Part shown: one piece after another, positions 241-11,705 of the stretch
Layout of the letters: the number at the start of each line of letters is the position of its first letter
Position numbering within the stretch: the first letter of the stretch is position 1
Assembly: GCA_002887195.1 (NCBI GenBank)
Contig: PJAB01001883.1
Coordinates: 1 to 11,705, forward strand
From: Chrysochromulina parva
Lineage: Eukaryota > Haptophyta > Prymnesiales > Chrysochromulinaceae
Reading direction: 5' to 3'
Length of the DNA: 11,705 nucleotides
The notes under the pieces: model-generated
What the model was told of the DNA's origin: nothing
The model's input: only the letters and a program-made list of their open reading frames with translations
The model's database searches: none
Position numbers and translations under genes: made by a program

Positions 241-2127
241 TTAATCGGCAAGGGGTGGTTTCAAACAACCGGCGCCTTCCTCGACGCGGCGGCGAGATTC
301 CGCGATCCAGAGATTGAGGGCCGCAAGATGAAGGAGGTCGCGCGCCTCTTCAAGTGAATGGCTCGCCGCTTCGTTGGTGACACATTGGAGCAGCGCCTTG
401 CCAGCGGTTTCAGGCTCGAGGGTGGTGCCAGGGCTCCTCGGCTGGCTGAGAACCTCTGACAGATCCGACAGGGCTGGAGCGAGTTTTTGCTCGAGACGGC
501 GCCGTTGCTCGTCGAGCCTTTCAAGCAGAGGTGGATGGACGCCACTTGACGAAACTTGTCGAGGTGGATGGACGCCGGCCTTCGAACGAACCGGGCTGCC
601 TCCCAGCCGTGGTATCCCTTCCGGCCCGGCCAGACGAACCGGGCTGCCTCCCAGCCGTGGTATCCCTCCCGGCCTACGAGCGAGCGGCGCCGACCCAGAC
701 GCCGGTCGCGCTCGAAGTCGCTTCTGCCCCTCGTCCGGCTGATGTAACGGCTGATGTAACGGCTGATGTAACGGCTGATGTAACGGCTGATGTAACGGCT
801 GATGTAACGGCTGATGTAACGGCTGATGGCCGGCCTCGCCAGCGCTCTCGTCCGAGTCAGAGTCCGTCGCCGAGTCGGCGCCTGCCGCCGAGTATGCGCC
901 TGCCGCCGAGCCGCAGTCTATGGAGCCCGCAAGGGCGCCTGAATCGGCGCCGAGCCGCAGTCTATGCAACCATGACATAGAGCGGCGAGCTTGAACGGAC
1001 GCATGGAGCTCGCCACTAGAGCGCTGCTGCGTCAGCTCGTGCTTAGTCGCCGTTCGCTCTGCATTGTTCTTGAAGAGCAGGGCGATCTTGATCCCTGCGC
1101 TGCGCTGCTGAGCTGTACTGCAAGTAGATCGCGAGATGGGAGGGGTTTCGTCACGTCGAGTTTCGTCACGTCGGAGGCAGCTGCATGTGGATGGCGAGAT
1201 GGCACTTGATGAGGTTGGAGCCGCAGGACCTGCACGTGGAACTCCAAAACCATCGCCCGGTTCGGGATGACGCTCGTCTATGTCGTCCTCGCCGTGCCCC
1301 CCAACTTCATCGTCCTCCCCTCTACCTCCTCGTCCCCGCCCCTGCTCTCGGCATTTCTCATCGGCATCGACAGCACCCCCCGTGAGGAGAAGGCTCGGTG
1401 GTGCAGGGGCGCTGTGGTTTGCCAGCTCGGCATAGCTGCGCTGCAAAGGCAAGTGCCCGCGCTGAGCATGCGCATGGCGCTGAAGGCAATCGTAGGCGAT
1501 TCTGCGAGAGGCGATCATCGGAGCCGACAACGGGCGCGGAATAGACCGAGAGCGCGATGCCAATGGATACGTAGCCTGAGGAGGGGCGGCGACGAGAGCG
1601 GCAACAATGGCCCGTGCCTGGGTGGAGGCGGCTGTTGTTGCTGCCAATTCTGGAACTCGAGATGGAAGTGCGCTGCTGATCACCGGCGAGGTCAAGTGGA
1701 CCACCTCGCCATTCGGAGCATGTGACGAGTCGCTGTACACGCGGACTTCACCTTGGAAACTGAGCCCCGACTTGCTAGGCCGCCACCCAAATGCTCGAGG
1801 GTCGGCATTCGAACGCCACGGTTTGCGTGTCCTAAAGGGCTGGGGCAGGATCAATGATGGCTTCGGCTTATGAATATGCGAGTTGCTGATCGAGAGCGTT
1901 TGCTGTACTCGTGCAGCTGATTGATCACTTGGTTGCAGGCCATCGCGAGAGACAGCGGTTGCCTTGGAGCTGGTGACGCGGCGTGATGGTGGCGAAACTA
2001 GGCTGGCCCGTCGCGATAAAGTGTCGCCGAGCTGTCGATGCAGCGGCCCTTCACTGTGCGGGTTAGTCATATACGACCCTTGCTTCTTTGTCGTTCGCGA
2101 TGAAAATCTTGTAGTTGTCCTCGGCAT
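241..2127 (-). CDS. Hypothetical low-complexity, repeat-containing protein (uncertain gene)
   Basis: This open frame of 628 codons starts at the first in-frame ATG (2125-2127) and ends at TAA (241-243). The frame is open a further 33 codons upstream to a TAG at 2227-2229, but without another ATG. I recognise no domain. Most of the product is rich in Ser, Arg, Ala and Pro and looks disordered. Residues about 436-464 are a run of His-Gln-Pro-Leu units encoded by a 12-bp minisatellite. They are followed by two copies of a Gly-Ile-Pro-Arg-Leu-Gly-Gly segment and two of a Gly-Val-His-Pro-Pro segment. The last 95 residues look more like folded protein: a charged helix around 534-560 (LERLDEQRRRLEQKL) and a second amphipathic helix around 592-616. 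The main repeat periods (12, 15, 18, 33, 48 bp) are multiples of three, which favours translation. Against it, the start context is weak, no homologue is recognised, and the low-complexity sequence could be an open frame by chance. Introns may be hidden in it. It lies about 150 bp downstream of the channel gene on the same strand. Confidence 0.4.
   Translation of the reverse strand: MPRTTTRFSSRTTKKQGSYMTNPHSEGPLHRQLGDTLSRRASLVSPPSRRVTSSKATAVSRDGLQPSDQSAARVQQTLSISNSHIHKPKPSLILPQPFRTRKPWRSNADPRAFGWRPSKSGLSFQGEVRVYSDSSHAPNGEVVHLTSPVISSALPSRVPELAATTAASTQARAIVAALVAAPPQATYPLASRSRSIPRPLSAPMIASRRIAYDCLQRHAHAQRGHLPLQRSYAELANHSAPAPPSLLLTGGAVDADEKCREQGRGRGGRGEDDEVGGHGEDDIDERHPEPGDGFGVPRAGPAAPTSSSAISPSTCSCLRRDETRRDETPPISRSTCSTAQQRSAGIKIALLFKNNAERTATKHELTQQRSSGELHASVQARRSMSWLHRLRLGADSGALAGSIDCGSAAGAYSAAGADSATDSDSDESAGEAGHQPLHQPLHQPLHQPLHQPLHQPLHQPLHQPDEGQKRLRARPASGSAPLARRPGGIPRLGGSPVRLAGPEGIPRLGGSPVRSKAGVHPPRQVSSSGVHPPLLERLDEQRRRLEQKLAPALSDLSEVLSQPRSPGTTLEPETAGKALLQCVTNEAASHSLEEARDLLHLAALNLWIAESRRRVEEGAGCLKPPLAD
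528..576. repeat. 33-bp-period direct repeat (two copies)
   Basis: The 16-bp unit gaggtggatggacgcc occurs identically at 528-543 and 561-576, 33 bp apart. The period equals eleven codons and keeps the minus-strand frame, giving two Gly-Val-His-Pro-Pro blocks in the hypothetical protein. Confidence 0.85.
586..674. repeat. 48-bp-period direct repeat (two copies)
   Basis: A 41-bp segment at 586-626 recurs at 634-674 with a single T/C difference. The period is 48 bp, or sixteen codons. On the minus strand it encodes two near-identical blocks containing Gly-Ile-Pro-Arg-Leu-Gly-Gly-Ser-Pro-Val-Arg. The near-identity indicates a recent duplication. Confidence 0.9.
737..828. repeat. 12-bp minisatellite, seven perfect copies plus a partial
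   Basis: The unit ggctgatgtaac repeats seven times without a mismatch (737-820), followed by a partial eighth copy (821-828). On the minus strand all three frames are free of stops through the array, and the frame used by the hypothetical gene reads His-Gln-Pro-Leu repeatedly. On the plus strand two of three frames hit TGA or TAA in every unit. There are no spacers, so this is a tandem array and not CRISPR. Perfect homogeneity suggests recent expansion and likely copy-number variation between strains. Confidence 0.95.
878..910. repeat. 18-bp-period short direct repeat
   Basis: The unit gcgcctgccgccgag is present at 878-892 and again at 896-910. The period is six codons. On the minus strand it contributes to the Ala/Gly/Ser-rich segment (SAAGAYSAAGA-like) of the hypothetical protein. 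A related segment, gccgagccgcagtctatg, occurs at 905-922 and 949-966, offset by 44 bp, which does not preserve frame. Confidence 0.75.
1145..1173. repeat. 15-bp-period tandem duplication
   Basis: The segment gtttcgtcacgtcg occurs at 1145-1158 and 1160-1173, giving a five-codon duplication read as Arg-Arg-Asp-Glu-Thr twice on the minus strand. It is another small in-frame expansion within the same low-complexity frame. Confidence 0.8.
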
Positions 2128-2274
2128 GCAATTGAAGGGTTCAGGATGACGCGTGTTCACACCTTGTTGGAAGTGTTGTGTGGGTGTGATTTCTAACACA
2201 AGGTCAAGGACCGGACCGAACGACACCTAGCGTCCAAACACCACAAACACAGGCGCAACCGAAAAGGCTCGCAA

Positions 2275-5200
2275 TCAGCACGACCACGAGCAAGGGCGCA
2301 ACGTGGAGCCCATCAACTCGATCTTATCCATCCCCTCGTCCCCTTTGACCGGTACTGCTCTCGGCTGGCCGCCCTCGAGCTCGCCGAAGGCGTTGCTCGC
2401 GGCAGTGGGCATTTCAAGCGATTGGCCGCTGCTGGCCCTGGAAATGTCCATGGCCATGCGTGGAAGGTTGCGCCCCCCGTGGGCAATCTGGCCGCAGCAC
2501 GCTGCAGGCGCCCCTCGGCTGATTGGCCCGAGCTCGTCTGGAAACTTGCTGCACAGCCCCTTCCACACGCCAAGGCTTAGTCCAAACAAATGGCAGTGCG
2601 TCGTCGCCTCGACGTGCATTGCGCTCAGCACGGGAGCCAACGGCCCGCTGAAAGCAAGCATCTCTGCCCCCACATAGTTCACACCCTCATTTCGGCCGAT
2701 GAGGTAGGAAGAGAGCGCGGGCATGCCCGTGCTGCTGGCATCCCGGTCGGTAATTTTGCGGTTCGCCATGGATGAGCTGCTGCGGGGCGGCGCCTGCCGG
2801 AACATGTTCGGCAGGCGCCGACCCCCCGCACGGAGCTTGCCCAAATCAACAAGGTAGAGCTTGACGGCGGGATCACCCTTCGTGATGACAGTATCGCCCT
2901 CCAGGAAGAGCTCCGGACGGAGCGCGACGCAGAGCTCGATGAGCGGGAAGAAGGTGAGGCTGCTGAGCGCTGGCACACAGAGAATGTTGTTGCGGTGCAT
3001 CCAAAGGCCGATGTCGCGGAGCAAAAAGGGTGGGAGCGCCTCTGTCAAGGATGTGTGCGAGACGCGCGGGTTGGACGAGATCAGCCGGTAGTAGGCAGTG
3101 ATGCGCAGAACCAGATCCGATGGCAGCTGGTGATGCGTCGTGTAGTGCTGGAGGTAGTCAGTCTGTGTCTTGAACATCTCCTCCTCGCCGTCGTTCAAGC
3201 GCACCAGCGAGGAGATGAGGCCGATGAGGCAGGCGAAGAGTGATGCCGAAATAAGCGAGAGCAACATCGCGAAGACCGTCTCGAGTGCGTTCTGCGGCCG
3301 CACGTCGCCTAAGCCGACAGTGCTCATGTGCGACAGTGTGAAGTGGACTGCACGAAGGTACGAGAGGCCCACGTTCGAGTGCGCCCAATCGGCGTCTTTC
3401 CATGCGATGTCCTCGGTCATCCAGTTGCGCCCCAGCGCGGACTTGGGGAGCGTGTACGCGTCAAAGAGCCAGAGGCATGCAAACCCATGGCAGACGTAGA
3501 CCCAGAGGCACGTAACCACCGCGAGGCGCGCCTGGCCACTCGAGAGATGAAGTTGGGGTGGCAGCAAGGCGAAGGCCACGCGGCAGTGCTCGAGGATGCG
3601 CGAGCAGCGCAGCAGCCGCGGCAGGCGCAGTAGAGCCACCGCGAGGAGGATCGTCTTCGTGTCGCTCGTCACAGCCAGCCCGATCGGCGCCAAGGCTTCG
3701 TAGGGCAGCGAAGCGAGCAAATCCAGGCGCAATTTGACCTGCACATAGTGCGTGCGAATCGCCGTGTGTGAGAGCTCCGACTGCATGAACGTTTCGCGCC
3801 CTGGGGGGAGGAAGGGGAAGCAGTAGGCGCGCAGCAACGAGTCGCACAGAAGGATCACATCGATCGACCACTGCGGTACGAGCGCGGCCCATGCGTTGGC
3901 GACGCTCAAAGGACTTCGCGGCCCGAACACGGCGATGAGAAAGGGGATCGAGGTGGCTAGAATGGCCGTTGTCAGTGCCATCACGAGCTCCCACAGCTGC
4001 CTCGGCAGCGTCGAGGGTGGGAAGATGTATCCATAACTCGATGGCTGCTGGATGGGGACATCGCCGGTCGATGAGGACCTCTTGGACGCCTCCGACATCT
4101 TGCATGGTGCAGCGTGCCCTGGAGTGCTGTCACCACGGAGGATGGCTTGCTCGCGGACGATGCGCTCGTTGGTTGAGCGGTAACAGGCATCGATGGATCG
4201 CACAAGGGACTCGAGTTTGGCAAGGTAAGCCGCGTCGCGATGCAGACCAAAGAGCGCGCACGCCGCGTCAAGCTGCGTGCGCGTGAGCTGAAGGACAACA
4301 GCACGCGTCACCGCGCGGACCGAGGCGTTGCGCGCGGTGCCTTGGAGAAAGAAGGATACTTCACCGAGCACCGCGCCTGGGCCAACGGTGCCCACGACCG
4401 TCGACTTGGTGTGCTCAAAGTGGTCCTTGGCGAAGCCCATTTTCTCTCCCATAAGCGCTTCGGCTTTCCTTCGGCGATTAACGGGCGCCGAGAGCGAGGG
4501 ACGGCGACCGGCCGTGAGCACCTCGAAGACGCCCTCGACAATGATGTACATATCTTGCGTGCCTTTATCGCCCTCGAGCATGAGCAGCTCGCTGGGGGTG
4601 ATGACGATGCCGCGCATCTCATTTGTAATGTGGCCGAGGACGGCCCGCGGCAGCAGGTCTGCTAGCTTCGTCTTCGAGAGCAGCTCGAGCCGAATTGCTT
4701 TGGAGGTCTCGAGCTGGAGCTGTGGCGGGAGCTTGTTGAGTACAGCTTTATCCTTGTCGGCGCCACGGTAGTGCGACCAGACGAGGAAGCGGACGACGCG
4801 CTGCTGCAGTGGTGGCGGCACGGCGTAGCTCATCATGACCTTTTCCATGCTCGTCTGCACCATCGCATGCTCGTACTCCTCCTGGTCGAGTCGCGCGATC
4901 GCGTTCACGATGACGCCAAGACCTGTCGACGACAATGTCGAACCAGCAACAATGAGGAAGATCATGTAGTACGTCTCGGGCATCGTGTCGGGAACCATAT
5001 CACCAATTGGCACGACCACGAACGTGCCAATCGAGATGTAGAGACCGCGAAGCCACGCGAGCACCGCCAGAGGCTGGCAACGCGCCGCGCCCTCGAGGAC
5101 GACGACGTCGCGCGCCCACCACGAGTACGCTTGCCACGTGTGCGCGCTCGTGTTCGTCACGAAAGAGGCATCGAACTCGCGCCACCCGATGTACGCCCAC

Positions 5201-8200
5201 ACGCATGCCGAGAGGTGTGAGAGCATGATGACGATAAGCACGAGACGGCCGAGGCGCACATGCTGCATAGTCATGGCCGGCGACTGATTGAGCAGCCACA
5301 CCTCGATGTTATACGTGTGGCGTGGCAGGAAGACGAGCAGTGGCAGCCGCAGCACCCAGATGATGCTCACAGCTGTCGTCATCGCGTCGGACACGGCGTC
5401 GCCGCCGTCGCGCACGCCAGCCATCGCAATGGAGAGGGCGTCGAGGACGAGCACGACGGCAAGAAGGAGCACCGCAAAGGGGAGCATGCCGTGTGCTCCA
5501 TGCCACGCAGCAGTTGGCTCGTCCAACGTCTCCACCTTGCCCGCCGCGCTCCCGCCCAAAGTACGCAACTGAACCCCAAGCAAGTCAACGCCAATCGCCA
5601 CGTCGACAAGGAAATCGAAGATACACAGGCCGACCGTGTCAGAGTACGATTCCTGCGCGGCGACCGTACTCGGGTCACAGCTGTCTGCGACGTTAGGCAG
5701 GGGATGTATACTACTGCCGTTCTGAAGTGCCGCCGACCATTCGGCAGGCACGGCAAAGTGGTTGGAGAGAGACGCTCGGAACGGGTCGCCGAACAGCCGA
5801 TAGAGGAGTAGCAGGCACAACAGAAGCGACCAAACGTGCGCAGAGCGCAGCTTCGCGGCCCAGCCATCTAGTGTTCGAAGAAGGCGCTGCAGTCGCAGCC
5901 CGCGCCCGCGTGCCGCCCCGACTTTGGCTGTGCCATCTGTCGCGATGAACAGGGCGGTCTCGTTGATGCGGCGTTCGGCGAAGCTGCTCGAGACAAAAAC
6001 ATCGTCGGCCCCCATGCACTTGAGGAGCTTTGGCGACTTGACGAGATTGCGGCAAATCGCCTTGTCACGCTCGCAGCTCGCTAGATACCCCTCGCGTGCA
6101 TGCTCCTTGATCGTGGTCTCGAGCTCGGGAAAGCGGCTCAGCAGATCATCAAAGGACTTACGGCGGAGCACCAGGCACTCGCACAGCCTAATACCAATCA
6201 TGTCGCAACGATGCATGGCACAGAGCACAAACTCCTCTGCACCGATGCTGCCGCCATTTTGGATCTTCTCGAGCAGGATCGTATCCGAGCTCGGATCCGC
6301 ATCGTCCGGTGAAGACGGCGTGTCGCCGGCCGCCCGCAACTTTGGTGTGGTTGTCAACTCACTGAGATTCGTCGAGCGGCCACCAAACGATTCGGCGAGA
6401 TCAACATCATCCTCAAACCTGCGTCGGGCTGACGGGCTCTCACTTCTGCTGCTGCTGATGAAGAGACCATCTAAGAGCCCGCGGCTGCCGCGGTCAGTAA
6501 CCAGCGACCCCAGACGTTTAAAGCTCGCTGGCTGACTGGCTTCATTGAGCTCCGCCTCGTGATAGCCCAGGGGCACGTCTGGCGGTGCACTGGCGGCGTC
6601 TACATCGCCTGCGCGGCTCGCGAGGCGCATCCTTCGGTGCACCTCACCGCGCTCGAGGAAGATAATCCCGGTCGTCGCGTCGCCAGTCTTCGCGATGAAA
6701 AAGTTGGGCACGGTCAGCTCGACGCGCAACGAAGCGCCCACTCCGACCAGGAACGCCTCCGAGGAGTCGCAGAAGCACGAAACCGAGCGCACAATGTCCA
6801 GGTACAGGTGCGCGGTCGCGAGCGAGTGGAGAGAGGGCGGCAGCGAGCGCAGCAGCTGGGTCTCCGTGCGAATCCGCTCGCCGAGCTTGGAAAACATGAT
6901 GATCTGCGAGCGCAACGGCTCGGCGATAAGGTTGCGGTGCACGAAGTCACGCACGACCGTCGCGTGCTCGGCGCGCGCCGCCATTGCATCCACCAGCAGT
7001 GACATCATCGCGCCCGTAAATGCTGGGTACAGCAGCGCGCCGAAAGTGATGAAGATCGACGCGACCCACGTTTCGGCGATCGTTTTGGGCACGATGTCGC
7101 CGAGACCCATGGTGCTCACTGCCACAATCATCCAGTAGAGCGAGCGCAAGTATGAGTAAAAGGGGTTCGATTGGTCATCCGGATAAGCATCGCTGGCCTC
7201 GCGCAGGTAGACCGCATCTTGCATGAGCCATGATTGCGTGCTCAAGTCCGACGCGCTGATCGAGTCGCTATCGATGAGGCCGAGCCACAGCCAGACGCAT
7301 GCGCCCCAGTGACAGACGACAAAGAATTGGATCATCATGCAGGTCATGCAACGGATGTGCTTAGGCGGCGGCTCGAGCCACAGCCAATTATCTTGCATGA
7401 GCTCGACAATCTCGCTCATCCAACTCCCCGCACAGCGCAGCCGCACCAGTCGCGGTAGCATGAGCGCCGGCACCCACGATTGCGACGGATGCCAAGCGTA
7501 CCCTACCCATTCGTAGGGCAGGCAGCACACGATGTCGATTGCAACCCAGATGCGCTGCTTAAGCGTGGGACGGTGCGACTGCTTGCGCTGGACCATCACT
7601 TGGTGCCTCAGTTGGTTGAGATTGACCGCAGCGATGCGATCGCTGATCCCGTTGAGCTCACTCCAGAGCTGCAGCCAGAGCACGAGGTCCGTCACGATGT
7701 CGACAGCGAGCCAAGAGAGCTCAAGGCCTGAGCGCGACTCGAAAGCGACACGGACGGGCAGTACCAGAGCCAGATAGGAGACAGCCAGCAGGCGCAGCGC
7801 GAGCCAAAGGCTCGGCAGCACAAACCGCCACCAAGCCCGCCCGTCTTTGCGAGCCGCCTCGGCCTTTCGAGCCAACGTCATCTTGCTTATGATGCCGTGC
7901 AAGGCGTGCACGGATGACGTTGGCCTGGATGGCTGTAAGGGGCCAACCCTCGACAGGGTGTCGGGTTCGCATGCCACTGGTATCGCTGCCTCCGACGCAC
8001 GGGTCGAGGCATGCCTGGGCGCCGCTGCGTCTAGCGTGGCGGGCGAAAAGGTGTGTGGCGGTGGTGCAGCGCTCGGGTTGCGAGCCGCCATCAGACGCTC
8101 GACGTCCTTGCTGTGCAAGGCAAGCACCTCCACGAAAGTCGTCGCACGGAAATCGCTGCTCACTTCAACCGCACGTGTTGCAGCGGCAGGCAGAATACAG

Positions 8201-9819
8201 TTGCCCTCGTCGTACGTGCGAATGGTGTGGAGATGACCGCCTGATCGCCTCAGAAAGCGCGACATCGAATTCACTGAGGGCCGGCGCACGCGCGAGCTTG
8301 GCTGGCTCACATTCACGCTGTTCGGATTGCCCTCCAGCAGGCCAGATTCGACGACCATCCCGCGGACGAGCAGCCACGCGTTCGTGCATATCAGTGGCGT
8401 CATCGTGGCGGTACCATCCTCGGCGATGGACGAGCACTTGATCAAGTACTCATCCTTTGTGTAGAGCACGGGGGAGAGCAGCTCGGCGAGGGCGGAAATC
8501 GTGTCGGGGTCCGACCGCGCGAACGCGGGGATGGAACGCAGCAGCTTGTGATTGAGTGCAAAGATCACTTCAATCCGGAGGGACGAAGGCAGCCCCGCAA
8601 AGAACGTGCTCTCGTTGGCGCCACGCAGATAGAGCCATTGGTACTGCAGGTACTCCCGGAGACGCCGGGCGAGCTCGGGGGGGATCTTGCGCTTCCTTAT
8701 AAAGGCATCTGTACGCTCGACACGTGCCTGCCACGAATCCTTCATCTTGTCAGAACGCATCAGCTCTGCCATCAACAACCCGACCGCGCCGGACGCTGTG
8801 AACGTGCTCATAAACATGACAGCTATGGTGAAGACCATCTCGTCCCATTTGGTGGGCACGATGTCGCCAAGGCCGACGGTGGTCATCGTGCCACACGCCC
8901 AGTAGTACGCGCGTGCATAGTGTAGCCAGTACTCTGCGGCCACAAAAGAAATCGAACGCAAGCAGGCGAGGTGAGCTGCCGCATCGCGTGGTCGGCACCC
9001 ACCCGGCTGCTGCGCACCGGTGGGGCGCGCGGCGAGGGGGCTCGCTTCCTGCCAGCCCGACGTGTCGCCGGACCAGGTGCCCACCGCCTGCCATCCGCAA
9101 GCAACCAGATGCACGAGCAGGACATAGACGGGAACGTAGGAGGATAGCCGCGCCCAGCCAACCGTGAATCCCGCCTTGTGCCGCATACACCAATATGCCG
9201 CGCGAATTGCATCCGGAAGGTGCATGAGGCGCATGAGGCGCAGAAGCGAGACGGTCGTCCATGTGCGGAGCGACGCGTTGCCGAGCAGAACAAATAGATC
9301 GACGGGCACCCATGCAACTAGCCGGCTTAGAACCTTGAGGATGGCCAGACAAAGGCGCAGGTTGCGCGAGCACTTGGTATCTTCGTCATCATCGTTGCCC
9401 TCGCCCGCTTCAAGGCGGTGCTCGTTGAGCTCTGACGGTGAACGCGTCACCTCCGGAGACTGAGTCACGCGCCTGCGCGCTTGGTTGCGCACCAGACGAG
9501 TCGAGCGGAGTACTAGGAATGCGACGTCCACGAAGTAGAGAGAGACGCAGTAGCCAGCAAGCTCAGGATACTGCAATGCTGGCCGGTCGGTGTATTGATC
9601 CCAGCCAATTGACGTGAAGGCCGAGCGGAACGGAAGCAGGACAGCGTGCACCATGATCAGGCTGCCGCTAATCAAGTGGAACAAGGTTTCGGTCCAGTTG
9701 AGCGCTGCGACGTTCTGTGCTTTGAGCTCCTCTTGTTGCGATGCTGCTGGCCTCTTGTTGCGGTCCAGCATAAAGGACGCGACCGAACGCCATTGTGACT
9801 TTCGCCCAGGTCCCTTCAT
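2275..9819 (-). CDS. Four-repeat (pseudo-tetrameric) cyclic-nucleotide-gated-type cation channel, CNGK-like
   Basis: One uninterrupted frame of 2514 codons. The ATG is at 9817-9819 with an in-frame TAG upstream (9847-9849), and the stop is TGA at 2275-2277. The product is a membrane protein with four homologous units, each with six predicted membrane helices, a re-entrant pore, a C-linker and a cyclic-nucleotide-binding-like domain. Repeat 1: S1 about 43-68, S2 88-108, S3 154-178, S4 187-210, S5 222-248, pore GLGD 316-319, C-linker 360-430, degenerate binding domain 432-580. Repeat 2: S1 about 665-692, pore GLGD 905-908, binding domain about 1015-1230 with a long Ser-rich insertion (1066-1185). 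Repeat 3: S1 about 1324-1342, pore PIGD 1604-1607, binding domain about 1690-1865 with EGD at 1749-1751 and the phosphate cassette around Glu1820, Arg1830 and Ser1833. Repeat 4: S1 about 1942-1966, pore GLGD 2169-2172, then a binding domain with an intact barrel half but no cassette arginine. The layout matches sea urchin sperm CNGK, a cGMP-gated K+ channel encoded as one chain of similar size. K+ selectivity and the cyclic-nucleotide ligand are inferred. Family assignment is strong and the exact function is not. Confidence 0.9.
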   Translation of the reverse strand: MKGPGRKSQWRSVASFMLDRNKRPAASQQEELKAQNVAALNWTETLFHLISGSLIMVHAVLLPFRSAFTSIGWDQYTDRPALQYPELAGYCVSLYFVDVAFLVLRSTRLVRNQARRRVTQSPEVTRSPSELNEHRLEAGEGNDDDEDTKCSRNLRLCLAILKVLSRLVAWVPVDLFVLLGNASLRTWTTVSLLRLMRLMHLPDAIRAAYWCMRHKAGFTVGWARLSSYVPVYVLLVHLVACGWQAVGTWSGDTSGWQEASPLAARPTGAQQPGGCRPRDAAAHLACLRSISFVAAEYWLHYARAYYWACGTMTTVGLGDIVPTKWDEMVFTIAVMFMSTFTASGAVGLLMAELMRSDKMKDSWQARVERTDAFIRKRKIPPELARRLREYLQYQWLYLRGANESTFFAGLPSSLRIEVIFALNHKLLRSIPAFARSDPDTISALAELLSPVLYTKDEYLIKCSSIAEDGTATMTPLICTNAWLLVRGMVVESGLLEGNPNSVNVSQPSSRVRRPSVNSMSRFLRRSGGHLHTIRTYDEGNCILPAAATRAVEVSSDFRATTFVEVLALHSKDVERLMAARNPSAAPPPHTFSPATLDAAAPRHASTRASEAAIPVACEPDTLSRVGPLQPSRPTSSVHALHGIISKMTLARKAEAARKDGRAWWRFVLPSLWLALRLLAVSYLALVLPVRVAFESRSGLELSWLAVDIVTDLVLWLQLWSELNGISDRIAAVNLNQLRHQVMVQRKQSHRPTLKQRIWVAIDIVCCLPYEWVGYAWHPSQSWVPALMLPRLVRLRCAGSWMSEIVELMQDNWLWLEPPPKHIRCMTCMMIQFFVVCHWGACVWLWLGLIDSDSISASDLSTQSWLMQDAVYLREASDAYPDDQSNPFYSYLRSLYWMIVAVSTMGLGDIVPKTIAETWVASIFITFGALLYPAFTGAMMSLLVDAMAARAEHATVVRDFVHRNLIAEPLRSQIIMFSKLGERIRTETQLLRSLPPSLHSLATAHLYLDIVRSVSCFCDSSEAFLVGVGASLRVELTVPNFFIAKTGDATTGIIFLERGEVHRRMRLASRAGDVDAASAPPDVPLGYHEAELNEASQPASFKRLGSLVTDRGSRGLLDGLFISSSRSESPSARRRFEDDVDLAESFGGRSTNLSELTTTPKLRAAGDTPSSPDDADPSSDTILLEKIQNGGSIGAEEFVLCAMHRCDMIGIRLCECLVLRRKSFDDLLSRFPELETTIKEHAREGYLASCERDKAICRNLVKSPKLLKCMGADDVFVSSSFAERRINETALFIATDGTAKVGAARGRGLRLQRLLRTLDGWAAKLRSAHVWSLLLCLLLLYRLFGDPFRASLSNHFAVPAEWSAALQNGSSIHPLPNVADSCDPSTVAAQESYSDTVGLCIFDFLVDVAIGVDLLGVQLRTLGGSAAGKVETLDEPTAAWHGAHGMLPFAVLLLAVVLVLDALSIAMAGVRDGGDAVSDAMTTAVSIIWVLRLPLLVFLPRHTYNIEVWLLNQSPAMTMQHVRLGRLVLIVIMLSHLSACVWAYIGWREFDASFVTNTSAHTWQAYSWWARDVVVLEGAARCQPLAVLAWLRGLYISIGTFVVVPIGDMVPDTMPETYYMIFLIVAGSTLSSTGLGVIVNAIARLDQEEYEHAMVQTSMEKVMMSYAVPPPLQQRVVRFLVWSHYRGADKDKAVLNKLPPQLQLETSKAIRLELLSKTKLADLLPRAVLGHITNEMRGIVITPSELLMLEGDKGTQDMYIIVEGVFEVLTAGRRPSLSAPVNRRRKAEALMGEKMGFAKDHFEHTKSTVVGTVGPGAVLGEVSFFLQGTARNASVRAVTRAVVLQLTRTQLDAACALFGLHRDAAYLAKLESLVRSIDACYRSTNERIVREQAILRGDSTPGHAAPCKMSEASKRSSSTGDVPIQQPSSYGYIFPPSTLPRQLWELVMALTTAILATSIPFLIAVFGPRSPLSVANAWAALVPQWSIDVILLCDSLLRAYCFPFLPPGRETFMQSELSHTAIRTHYVQVKLRLDLLASLPYEALAPIGLAVTSDTKTILLAVALLRLPRLLRCSRILEHCRVAFALLPPQLHLSSGQARLAVVTCLWVYVCHGFACLWLFDAYTLPKSALGRNWMTEDIAWKDADWAHSNVGLSYLRAVHFTLSHMSTVGLGDVRPQNALETVFAMLLSLISASLFACLIGLISSLVRLNDGEEEMFKTQTDYLQHYTTHHQLPSDLVLRITAYYRLISSNPRVSHTSLTEALPPFLLRDIGLWMHRNNILCVPALSSLTFFPLIELCVALRPELFLEGDTVITKGDPAVKLYLVDLGKLRAGGRRLPNMFRQAPPRSSSSMANRKITDRDASSTGMPALSSYLIGRNEGVNYVGAEMLAFSGPLAPVLSAMHVEATTHCHLFGLSLGVWKGLCSKFPDELGPISRGAPAACCGQIAHGGRNLPRMAMDISRASSGQSLEMPTAASNAFGELEGGQPRAVPVKGDEGMDKIELMGSTLRPCSWSC
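4300..4650 (-). other. Best-preserved cyclic-nucleotide-binding domain (channel repeat 3)
   Basis: This segment encodes the part of the channel that best matches a working cyclic-nucleotide-binding domain. The beta-barrel half has Glu-Gly-Asp at 1749-1751, followed by Met-Tyr-Ile-Ile and Glu-Gly-Val. The phosphate-binding cassette reads LGEVSFFLQGTARNASVRA, with Glu1820, Arg1830 and Ser1833 at the positions that contact cyclic nucleotide phosphate and ribose in this family. An insertion between the two halves carries an RRPS motif (1772-1775). The domain follows the PIGD pore repeat. The equivalent regions of repeats 1, 2 and 4 each lack the cassette Glu, the cassette Arg, or both. Confidence 0.75.
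4996..5025 (-). other. Divergent pore motif of channel repeat 3 (PIGD)
   Basis: The selectivity-filter segment of repeat 3 reads Val-Val-Val-Pro-Ile-Gly-Asp-Met-Val-Pro, with Pro1604, Ile1605, Gly1606 and Asp1607. The other three repeats read Thr-Val/Met-Gly-Leu-Gly-Asp. Repeat 3 has therefore lost the first filter glycine and the preceding threonine but kept the second glycine, the aspartate and the downstream Val-Pro. The frame is open on both sides, so this is a substitution and not a frameshift. Confidence 0.85.
9222..9239. repeat. 9-bp tandem repeat encoding the S4 helix of repeat 1
   Basis: The unit gcatgaggc is present twice in tandem (9222-9230, 9231-9239), followed by a related gcagaagc. 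On the minus strand it encodes the Leu-Arg-Leu-Met-Arg-Leu-Met-His part of S4 in channel repeat 1, placing Arg194, Arg197 and His200 every third residue. The three-residue spacing is characteristic of voltage-sensor helices. Confidence 0.7.
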
Positions 9820-10312: not shown

Positions 10313-11705
10313 TCACTTGAGCAGCATGGGCGCTGAGAACTTAGCAACGCGCTCCACCTCCTCATGGCGCAGAAGCTGCGCGGCAGGCGTCCCTAGGATG
10401 GTCTCCCCGATGATGAGCGAAGAGCGCTCGAGCTTCTCGATTGGGTTGGCATTGCGCAGGACGACTGTGTCGATGAGCGAATCGTCGAAGCAGTGCGTCG
10501 TGCACAGCACCACGTGAAGCGACGCGCAATCAATCGGGAGAGTGCCGGAGCGCGAAAGGCCGTCGAGCAAGTCGAAGGCGGCGGCTTTCCCACTCTTCTG
10601 CTCCGCCTCACCGAGCGTGCTGTTCGTTGGTTTGGCCAGAAGCGCCTTTTGCGAGCGCTTCTGCCAGATCGGGCCCACCTTGATCGTTGTTGCGCGCAGC
10701 GCACCATCGACATCATGTTCCTCGAAGCGCGCGTCGAGTTCCGCAGGAACTTTGGTGAAATCGACTGCACCACCTTCGGCGCCTCCGCCGGCCTCCGGCG
10801 CCAGGGGAGCCTCTTTGGGCTCAAGCTTGGCTGTGGGAAGCTTGGCTGGCGCAGACGACGTACTCTGCGGCACGGATGCTGCTGAATCACAGCTCGCTGA
10901 ATCGTAGCTCTTGAGATTCGCCCGCGGCGGAGGCGCTCCGAACCCCCCCCCGGCGGGGGGGGGATATCCCCCCCCGGCGGGGGCTCCGAAGGCTGCGGGT
11001 GCGGCGCCAAAGCAGGCAGCGCCGCCGCCAAAGGCCATCGGCGCGCTGCATGGCATGCTCATGCAGCATGGCATAGCCTGGGGGCGCGGTGGTGCGGGGG
11101 GTGGTGCACATGCCATGCGGCGCGCTACCGAGTGGCTGCGCACTACCGAGTCATCAGAGTATTCCTCCTCCGAATGGGCCACCATGTGGCGAGGGTGAGC
11201 ATATTCAAAGGCCTGCTTCTCCGCTGCCACCTCCGCCTTCTTGGCCTCGTCGATCGTCGTCTTGATCGCCGCCACGTGTGCCTTGACCGCCGTGAGCTTC
11301 TCGGCGGCCGGGGCGTTCGCGTCGCCGTCGTACGACAGCAGATCGGACGGAATCTGATAGTCAATAAAGAGTTCGAGGAGGGTCTCGGTGAGCGCGGTCT
11401 CCTTGACGAGTGAATCCGGTGGCAGTCGGAGCAGCCTCTCGAGCTGCGGCTTGAGCTGGAGGACGAGCAGCCCAAAGACAGTCCCCTCAAGCTGCATCGA
11501 ACGGTACGCCTTGCAGAAGCGCTGCTGCTCCGGGGAGAGGGAGGCGATCGCGTCGCGGAACTCGGCGGCGGAGGGGAGGGTCTCGAGCATCAGCGGGATC
11601 GTGAGCTCGTCCTTGTTGCGCACGATCATCGCGTGCTGCGGCTGGAACGTGTTGTTCGGGCCGAGCCGTCCGATGAGCAGCATGAAGCACGAGAACTGGC
11701 GCGCC
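10313..11705 (-). CDS. Conserved uncharacterised protist protein, 3' portion (5'-truncated by the window)
   Basis: The frame is open from the window edge to TGA at 10313-10315, giving 463 visible residues. Met at 11681-11683 is probably internal, because the frame continues upstream (ARQFSCF) to the edge. Numbering from that Met, residues 1-120 form a conserved module with landmarks such as NKDELTIP, LSPEQQRF, LKPQLERLL and YQIPSDLLSYDG. A helical stretch at 125-160 could be coiled coil. Residues about 165-305 are low complexity: Pro/Gly/Ala-rich with a Met/Cys cluster at 204-216. Residues 306-446 form a second conserved module (WQKRSQKALL, AFDLLDGLSRSG, LPIDCASLHVV, FDDSLIDTVV, NPIEKLERSSLI). 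From memory, both modules occur together in proteins of ciliates, oomycetes, haptophytes and other algae, often at the C-terminus of longer proteins and without known function. I do not assign a function. Confidence 0.8.
   Translation of the reverse strand, partial: ARQFSCFMLLIGRLGPNNTFQPQHAMIVRNKDELTIPLMLETLPSAAEFRDAIASLSPEQQRFCKAYRSMQLEGTVFGLLVLQLKPQLERLLRLPPDSLVKETALTETLLELFIDYQIPSDLLSYDGDANAPAAEKLTAVKAHVAAIKTTIDEAKKAEVAAEKQAFEYAHPRHMVAHSEEEYSDDSVVRSHSVARRMACAPPPAPPRPQAMPCCMSMPCSAPMAFGGGAACFGAAPAAFGAPAGGGYPPPAGGGFGAPPPRANLKSYDSASCDSAASVPQSTSSAPAKLPTAKLEPKEAPLAPEAGGGAEGGAVDFTKVPAELDARFEEHDVDGALRATTIKVGPIWQKRSQKALLAKPTNSTLGEAEQKSGKAAAFDLLDGLSRSGTLPIDCASLHVVLCTTHCFDDSLIDTVVLRNANPIEKLERSSLIIGETILGTPAAQLLRHEEVERVAKFSAPMLLK
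10943..10983. repeat. Alternating homopolymeric C and G runs inside a coding region
   Basis: The plus strand reads C9 (10943-10951), GGC, G9 (10955-10963), ATAT, C8 (10968-10975), GGC, G5 (10979-10983). Adjacent runs are complementary, so each can fold into a perfect G-C hairpin with a three- or four-base loop. The G9 run on either strand could also join a quadruplex. On the minus strand it encodes two Pro-Pro-Pro-Ala-Gly-Gly-Gly blocks in the linker of the protist protein. Homopolymers like this are prone to polymerase slippage and assembly error. Confidence 0.9.

Follow-up and report, generated by a model that had tools for sequence, protein, structure and literature searches.

Whether one gene can supply all four quarters of an ion channel of the cyclic-nucleotide-binding-domain (CNBD) superfamily in an alga, where such a chain came from, and how four unlike quarters would work together, are the questions raised by the reverse strand of contig C1883 (PJAB01001883.1), the whole of which, 11,705 nucleotides, is the window analysed here. 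According to a 2020 survey, CNBD channels with four repeats occur in metazoans and choanoflagellates, and those with two repeats in dinoflagellates and oomycetes (PMC7576140; this and the other published sources are cited for the available part of their text). The literature searched, which did not cover most subscription journals, gave no report of a CNBD channel with four repeats from organisms other than animals and choanoflagellates. The family of the window protein (P0001; P0002 onward are homologues found by search) is four-repeat, algal and strongly specialised, and therefore makes two questions testable, namely the number of times that one-chain CNBD channels arose, and the effect of broken symmetry on a K+-type filter and on ligand binding. 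The frame is very probably a real gene encoding a one-chain four-repeat CNBD channel. On balance we favour the reading that the gene belongs to a photosynthetic alga, most likely one of the haptophytes, and encodes a CNBD cation channel that is pseudo-tetrameric and probably permeable to K+, with a predicted 3+1 selectivity filter and one putative ligand site in repeat 3.

The open reading frame (ORF) of 2514 codons runs uninterrupted from ATG to stop. Given the local base composition and independent codons, the chance of so long a frame staying open is about 10^-31. Each of the other five frames is interrupted by 37 to 91 stops over the same interval, and a GC content of 76% at third against 47% at second codon positions is typical of a coding gene. 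Translation may in fact begin at the second ATG (residue 17, window position 9771), which would leave the first 16 residues untranslated, because P0002 and P0003, 99% and 90% identical to P0001, both begin at residue 17.

Pfam recognised Ion_trans, Ion_trans_2 and cNMP_binding four times each on P0001 (E cut-off 10 for a single stretch; E-values for the whole protein 4.5e-35, 1.2e-26 and 1.7e-18, respectively), and each repeat has the layout of the CNBD channel superfamily, i.e. six transmembrane helices (6TM), a C-linker and a CNBD. A search of the PDB returned 176 sequences at E ≤0.1, and the best 60 of these, to which the following statements refer, were CNBD channels (SthK, KCNH, HCN, CNG, SKOR). 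The best stretches fell in repeats 1, 2 and 4 (R1, R2 and R4), and the best match of R1 was SthK (residues 300–468, E 1.2e-22 for the stretch). SthK and related single-repeat CNBD channels differ from P0001 in being built of four separate subunits with a canonical filter in each. The original prediction, of a single-chain four-repeat channel of cyclic-nucleotide type, was borne out by the ORF, the Pfam stretches and these matches, which also go against the refutation it named, alignments without any relation to CNBD channels. Its unequal pore-to-pore distances of 589, 699 and 565 residues were reproduced, and the high divergence it described amounts to 17–21% identity between repeats over the pore-to-C-linker part (mean 19.4%).

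Cav, Nav and NALCN channels are not known to carry a CNBD or C-linker. The four cNMP_binding stretches of P0001 separate it from the four-6TM Cav and Nav plan, and its best 60 PDB matches are CNBD channels, although the one-chain arrangement of four 6TM units with specialised, asymmetric repeats is shared (PMC6259924). Two-repeat tandem CNBD channels likewise resemble P0001 in being protist proteins with diverged 6TM-CNBD repeats and some partly decayed CNBDs, but they have two repeats, not four, and come from other lineages; they are set apart here by description.

Among 7989 scored candidates, the full-length search yielded five homologues (P0002 to P0006). P0002, P0003 and P0006 (41% identity, 3860 amino acids) are full length, and P0004 and P0005 are fragments with 55 and 59% identity over about a quarter of the query. 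A profile search returned ten proteins at E ≤0.001, with P0007 to P0013 new and P0004 and P0005 not in the ten. P0007 is a fragment of the window family that holds R1 and R2, and P0013 was left unused, as its precomputed Pfam list had no CNBD. The four-repeat layout is retained in P0003 and P0006. Identity to P0001 in the four core regions is 90–95% for P0003, in which the C-terminal tail is the least similar part (73%), and 38–49% for P0006. The repeats are one-to-one orthologous between P0001 and P0006, with 100% bootstrap in four trees, as are R3 and R4 of P0004 with R3 and R4 of the window family. Four repeats with repeat-specific filters and binding sites are thus kept in homologues down to 41% identity. 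A search with region 285–475 matched P0002 and P0003 only, and none of 476 pattern matches on viral contigs encodes a relative.

Outside the window family, Pfam counts of Ion_trans and cNMP_binding stretches were four and four in P0010, four and two in P0011, and three and two in P0009, where the start of a fourth repeat was read from the sequence and a complete R4 is absent; the four repeats of P0008 were read from the sequence without a Pfam scan. P0011 is a protein of Triparma laevis f. inornata (2228 amino acids, annotated as hypothetical or CNBD-containing), and its four Ion_trans stretches make it a one-chain four-repeat channel in a bolidophyte. It resembles P0001 as an algal chain with four Ion_trans stretches, and differs in having the first filter Gly in all four repeats and no clean one-to-one pairing of repeats. 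Mean identity between repeats (pore-to-C-linker) was 24.2% in P0006, 24.0% in P0008, 23.5% in P0009, 20.3% in P0011 and 32.9% in P0010. Low identity is thus not peculiar to P0001, P0011 being equally diverged.

The repeats differ in the filter. In R3 the Thr and the first Gly of TxGxG are gone. Across ten proteins, the first filter Gly was present in 8/8 R1, 8/8 R2 and 8/8 R4, and in 2/9 R3: it is missing from R3 of P0001, P0003, P0004, P0005, P0006, P0008 and P0009, and present in P0010 and P0011. Because five of the seven proteins belong to one family, these losses count as three lineages rather than seven events. Within the five family proteins the R3 filter reads VVVPIGD, LIIPIGD or AVIVIGD, and the motifs of P0006 from R1 to R4 are GFG, GFG, VIG and GYG.

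The binding domains are also unequal. The original prediction gave each repeat a binding-like domain, which the four cNMP_binding stretches uphold, but in the genome-wide scan with PF00027 (E ≤0.001) repeat 3 was the sole match on the contig (4258–4413, 36.1 bits), so the four cannot be taken as equivalent. Cassette residues were judged by alignment to the SthK phosphate-binding cassette, with placement uncertain for poorly scoring repeats. On this basis the Gly-Glu and the Arg occur together solely in R3 of P0001 and P0003 (Glu1820 and Arg1830 in P0001), and in R3, not in R4, the other repeat examined, of P0004 and P0005. In R1 of P0001 they do not occur together, and in R2 an Ala replaces the Glu. 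Elsewhere both residues are present in R3 only of P0008, R2 only of P0009, R1, R2 and R3 of P0010, and R3 of P0011 (where the cassette match to SthK is weak, z 3.3). Identities across the cassette region to P0003 were 74/75 for R3, 54/56 for R4 and 47/60 for R2, and to P0004 61/75, 42/56 and 31/60, respectively.

Features of the channel gene, in window coordinates; repeat limits were set by eye, so that the residue numbers marked ~ are approximate.
Feature	Residues	Position	Strand	Evidence
Four-repeat CNBD-type channel gene, 2514 amino acids		2275..9819	(-)	ORF, Pfam, homologues
Repeat 1; 6TM, C-linker, CNBD with insert	~40-540	8200..9702	(-)	Pfam, PDB
Repeat 1 selectivity filter TTVGLGD	313-319	8863..8883	(-)	
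Repeat 2; 6TM, CNBD insert of ~100 residues	~655-1245	6085..7857	(-)	Pfam, PDB, alignment
Repeat 2 selectivity filter STMGLGD	902-908	7096..7116	(-)	
Repeat 3; 6TM, degenerate filter, best-kept CNBD of the four	~1319-1890	4150..5865	(-)	Pfam
Repeat 3 filter VVVPIGD	1601-1607	4999..5019	(-)	
Repeat 3 phosphate-binding cassette, with Glu1820 and Arg1830	1815-1834	4318..4377	(-)	
Repeat 4; 6TM, CNBD without cassette Glu and Arg	~1931-2436	2512..4029	(-)	Pfam, PDB
Repeat 4 selectivity filter STVGLGD	2166-2172	3304..3324	(-)	

Taken together with the precedent of the animal four-repeat channels named CNGK, the four complete repeats suggest that one chain would fold into all four quarters of the pore. 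The usual K+-channel filter would come from repeats 1, 2 and 4, with repeat 3 contributing an altered quarter, so that the whole would be asymmetric (3+1). One cyclic AMP or cyclic GMP bound at repeat 3 would shift the C-linker ring so that the gate opens, as the residues and the CNGK known as ApCNGK suggest; a single nucleotide would suffice because the only intact site for one would be that of repeat 3, and the CNBDs of repeats 1, 2 and 4 would be structural. We put one-site gating through repeat 3, judged from its residues, at an even chance. Counted in hand-chosen stretches 20 to 25 residues long, Lys and Arg in the S4 segments number 3, 3, 2 and 5 from R1 to R4, and voltage sensing may lie mainly with R4, the most basic. 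The genome holds 10 matches to class III cyclases and 101 to CNBDs, and because of these cyclic-nucleotide signalling is likely present in the organism. As a side finding, contig C2143 (587–1738 and 5395–5988) carries both an Ion_trans stretch, with six stops read through, and the best class III cyclase match.

The prediction of an algal or protist genome was supported by 58 matches to the antenna family PF00504, a few of which are fragments of a single gene; these matches make the genome that of a photosynthetic organism. The antenna protein of contig C37 scored 287.7 bits to Emiliania huxleyi (9JJ8, 9UEN, chain A), 270.2 to Isochrysis galbana (8Z11), 235.2 to FCPI-7 of 9UH3 and 183.7 to a polyprotein of Euglena (9VFJ). 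Among the best 60 of 138 matches no further single-unit chain exceeded 169.3 bits. The organisms of 9UEN, 9JJ8 and 8Z11 follow PMC12716418 and PMC13219633, and that of 9VFJ follows PMC12577709. These lower-scoring chains include those of red algae (9KC5, 7Y5E), cryptophytes (7Y7B), a diatom (6LY5), a dinoflagellate (8JW0) and a brown alga (9YGV). Twenty 10-kb pieces of the genome had a GC content of 61–68%, and six of eight frames scanned matched a Pfam family at E ≤0.001, but neither result served to place the organism. The whole assembly comprises 45.07 Mb in 2199 contigs.

Several results weigh against the favoured reading, both in its taxonomic part and in its single ligand site. Haptophyte affinity, although most likely, rests on the rest of the bin, mainly on the one antenna protein, and the contig of the window could be mis-binned. 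Two other antenna proteins were less decisive, with Euglena polyproteins on top by bits in both; among single-unit chains, E. huxleyi came narrowly first for the second protein (103.1 bits, with 97.6 for the best chain from outside the haptophytes), and the third gave 89.8 for 9UH3, then 87.1 for Isochrysis and 86.2 for E. huxleyi. In P0006 no repeat has both cassette residues, R3 too having lost the Glu and the Arg, and its cassette region is no better kept in R3 (29/71) than in R4 (26/56) or R2 (25/59). Ligand gating is for these reasons not general to the whole family, and the P0006 residues argue that the ligand step either was lost at least once or is not general. The R3 cassette of P0001 itself matches SthK weakly (z 2.6), below the R2 cassette (z 7.4), despite the lack of the Glu in the latter. 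The class III cyclase matches leave unspecified which nucleotide would meet P0001, and ion selectivity is not readable from sequence alone (PMC7576140). AlphaFold models, with a mean pLDDT (predicted local distance difference test) of 33.6 for R3 and R4 (5 sequences) and 29.9 for R1 and R2 (4 sequences), were not used.

Four trees of repeats bear on the origin of the fusion. Tree A (31 rows) includes the filter columns and leaves out P0003, P0005 and P0007 (8 rows, near copies or fragments). Tree B (30 rows) adds voltage-sensor columns, drops the filter and also leaves out P0012. Trees C and D (32 rows each) leave out the same three proteins as tree A; C keeps seven filter columns and D drops them. 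P0002 is absent from all. Wherever joins of window-family repeats to P0009 or P0008 formed clades they were of the same number: R1 with P0009 R1 (94/89 in A, 86/94 in C, 95/90* in D, absent in B), R4 with P0008 R4 (92/78 in C, 88/73 in D), and R3 with P0009 R3 (78/74 in A, 93/79 in C, both with filter columns). The R3 join was lost once the filter columns were dropped (D) or voltage-sensor columns were also added (B), and in these two trees R3 stood beside P0011 R2 (85/87 and 86/79), a join of different positions; P0011 R2 was also within the R3 group of tree A (87/78). No join with P0008 or P0009 appeared as a clade in tree B. P0008 R2 joined P0009 R2 in tree D (90/66).

In 300 bootstrap trees of D, P0009 R1 was nearest to the window-family R1 in 100% and P0008 R4 nearest to R4 in 96%, and for these two only was agreement by number clear. 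P0008 R2 and P0009 R2 were nearest to R4 (73 and 74%), P0008 R3 to R2 (57%) or R3 (40%), P0008 R1 to R2 (46%), and P0009 R3 was tied between R2 and R3 (46% each). Hidden Markov model (HMM) comparisons ranked the same-number pairing, among 24 and for the whole repeat, the voltage-sensor domain, the pore and the S6-C-linker in that order, at 3, 17, 1 and 3 for P0009 (three repeats), 5, 12, 2 and 6 for P0008, and 14, 4, 17 and 9 for P0011. The pairing with P0009 is thus best in the pore and near chance in the voltage sensor; R3 of P0008 had its top score with the window-family R4 in all four parts. Placing the window family with P0009 was not rejected by the approximately unbiased (AU) test (p = 0.22).

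Common descent of the window family with P0009 is likely, being favoured by some of these results rather than shown by them, and with P0008 it is possible. We tentatively propose, while granting that the proposal may well fail, that CNBD channels with four repeats have a second, old lineage, which was fused apart from CNGK, is spread across distant protists (the window family, P0009 and P0008) and broke its symmetry before these split. Repeat 3 would be its regulatory quarter, carrying a filter that departs from the canonical one and, in several members, the sole ligand site, so that one nucleotide would gate an asymmetric pore. If true, this would parallel the domain specialisation of Cav and Nav.

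A fusion within the haptophytes, independent of the other tandems and starting from a local CNBD gene with a single repeat that was duplicated, appears rather unlikely. Tandem fusion among such channels is said to have occurred many times (PMC7576140), most deep joins to other protist tandems are unstable (trees B and D), and AU tests did not reject the four window-family repeats as one clade (p = 0.19 and 0.22). Yet the repeats are no more identical to one another than to single-repeat SthK (21–29%), in none of the four trees do all of them group, R2 and R4 joining weakly (66/81, tree A), and R1 joins its counterpart in P0009 in three of the four. L042, one single-repeat CNBD gene of the genome, is close to no window repeat. 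This 6TM-CNBD gene (contig C239:16200–18600; 617 amino acids, one end open) has the filter TSVGYGD. The original prediction would have read common origin from one-to-one pairing with CNGK repeats and independent fusion from a grouping of the four; with P0010 as CNGK stand-in neither was seen, although the second was not rejected.

That the chain is non-conducting or non-selective, the broken repeat 3 filter spoiling K+ selectivity and leaving either a scaffold for sensing or a cation channel without selectivity, is an unlikely account. The degenerate R3 filter runs through all five family proteins, as this account would have it, and the S4 of repeat 3 has few charges; R1, R2 and R4, however, retain the first filter Gly family-wide and the cores stay closely similar to P0003 and recognisably so to P0006. 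Because of this retention and the high core identity the pore can be regarded as under constraint.

In the second-lineage reading the window family stands apart from CNGK; orthology to the animal and choanoflagellate channel, through one old fusion that preceded the split of eukaryote supergroups and diverged beyond recognition in haptophytes, is improbable. CNGK of sea urchin sperm, zebrafish sperm and choanoflagellates shares with P0001 four 6TM-CNBD repeats in one chain and K+-type filters in most repeats, and this likeness in layout, which the original prediction drew, stands. ApCNGK, a K+-selective channel opened by cyclic GMP, moreover binds its ligand at the third CNBD alone (PMC4749565), the domain predicted from residues only to count in P0001. 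Sea urchin CNGK, however, has GYG or GFG filters (PMC4749565), whereas the motif of P0001 is PIG in repeat 3, one filter thus being broken, and GLG in the other three; its CNBD inserts differ too. Near-identical repeats with equal short linkers are described for CNGK, against the low identity and uneven spacing of P0001, and a 2018 review finds in CNGK no obvious domain specialisation, unlike Cav and Nav (PMC6259924). The four-repeat CNGKs found in metazoans and in choanoflagellates make up a single clade, with first repeats near third and second near fourth (PMC7576140).

The best CNGK look-alike found was P0010, an EukProt entry with a name like that of a transcript, which has GYGD filters, three intact cassettes and a mean inter-repeat identity of 33%. 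Its repeats formed a clade of their own in all four trees (98/92, 98/92, 96/87 and 100/99 in A, B, C and D), and no one-to-one pairing with those of P0001 was seen. AU tests rejected R3 with P0010 R3 (p = 0.0001) and, marginally, R1 with P0010 R1 (p = 0.043), and the HMM same-number pairing ranked 17 (whole), 23 (voltage sensor), 12 (pore) and 12 (S6-C-linker) of 24. The tie to CNGK considered in the original prediction has partial support. A tree with all window-family and P0010 repeats held together was, on the other side, not rejected (p = 0.11). The repeats of P0010 pair 1+4 and 2+3 (97/77 and 96/63 in A; 91/48 and 90/37 in D), not as the published 1+3 and 2+4, so that P0010 is a provisional stand-in, may not be a CNGK, and does not make the test final. 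We infer a lineage separate from the near-symmetric animal CNGK, or one that split from it very early.

An artefact of gene model or assembly, with separate genes fused in reading as one frame, is strongly disfavoured and has next to no probability, for although the locus is known from genomic DNA, the frame is uninterrupted and the order of repeats is identical in P0002, P0003 and P0006.

The frame is intron-free, as predicted, but this is not special to it. Among 138 of 286 candidates scored, 17 contigs each hold four Ion_trans matches in an apparent single open frame of 1458 to 3086 amino acids, one frame being judged by length (C1759, C77, C121, C540, C411, C660, C751, C66, C67, C1649, C949, C203, C1234, C1447, C1077, C1890 and C432). 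One small algal genome thus holds a large number of four-domain channel genes that lack introns. Overall, the original interpretation is partly supported.

Upstream of the channel gene and on the same strand lies a frame of 456 amino acids (10313–11683), which had no Pfam family above its cut-off, no NCBIfam match, and itself as the single match in the genome. A downstream frame of 661 amino acids (241–2226, reverse strand), without a Pfam family above cut-off, may not be a gene; within it, at 736–828, lies a perfect 12-bp minisatellite of 7.8 copies.

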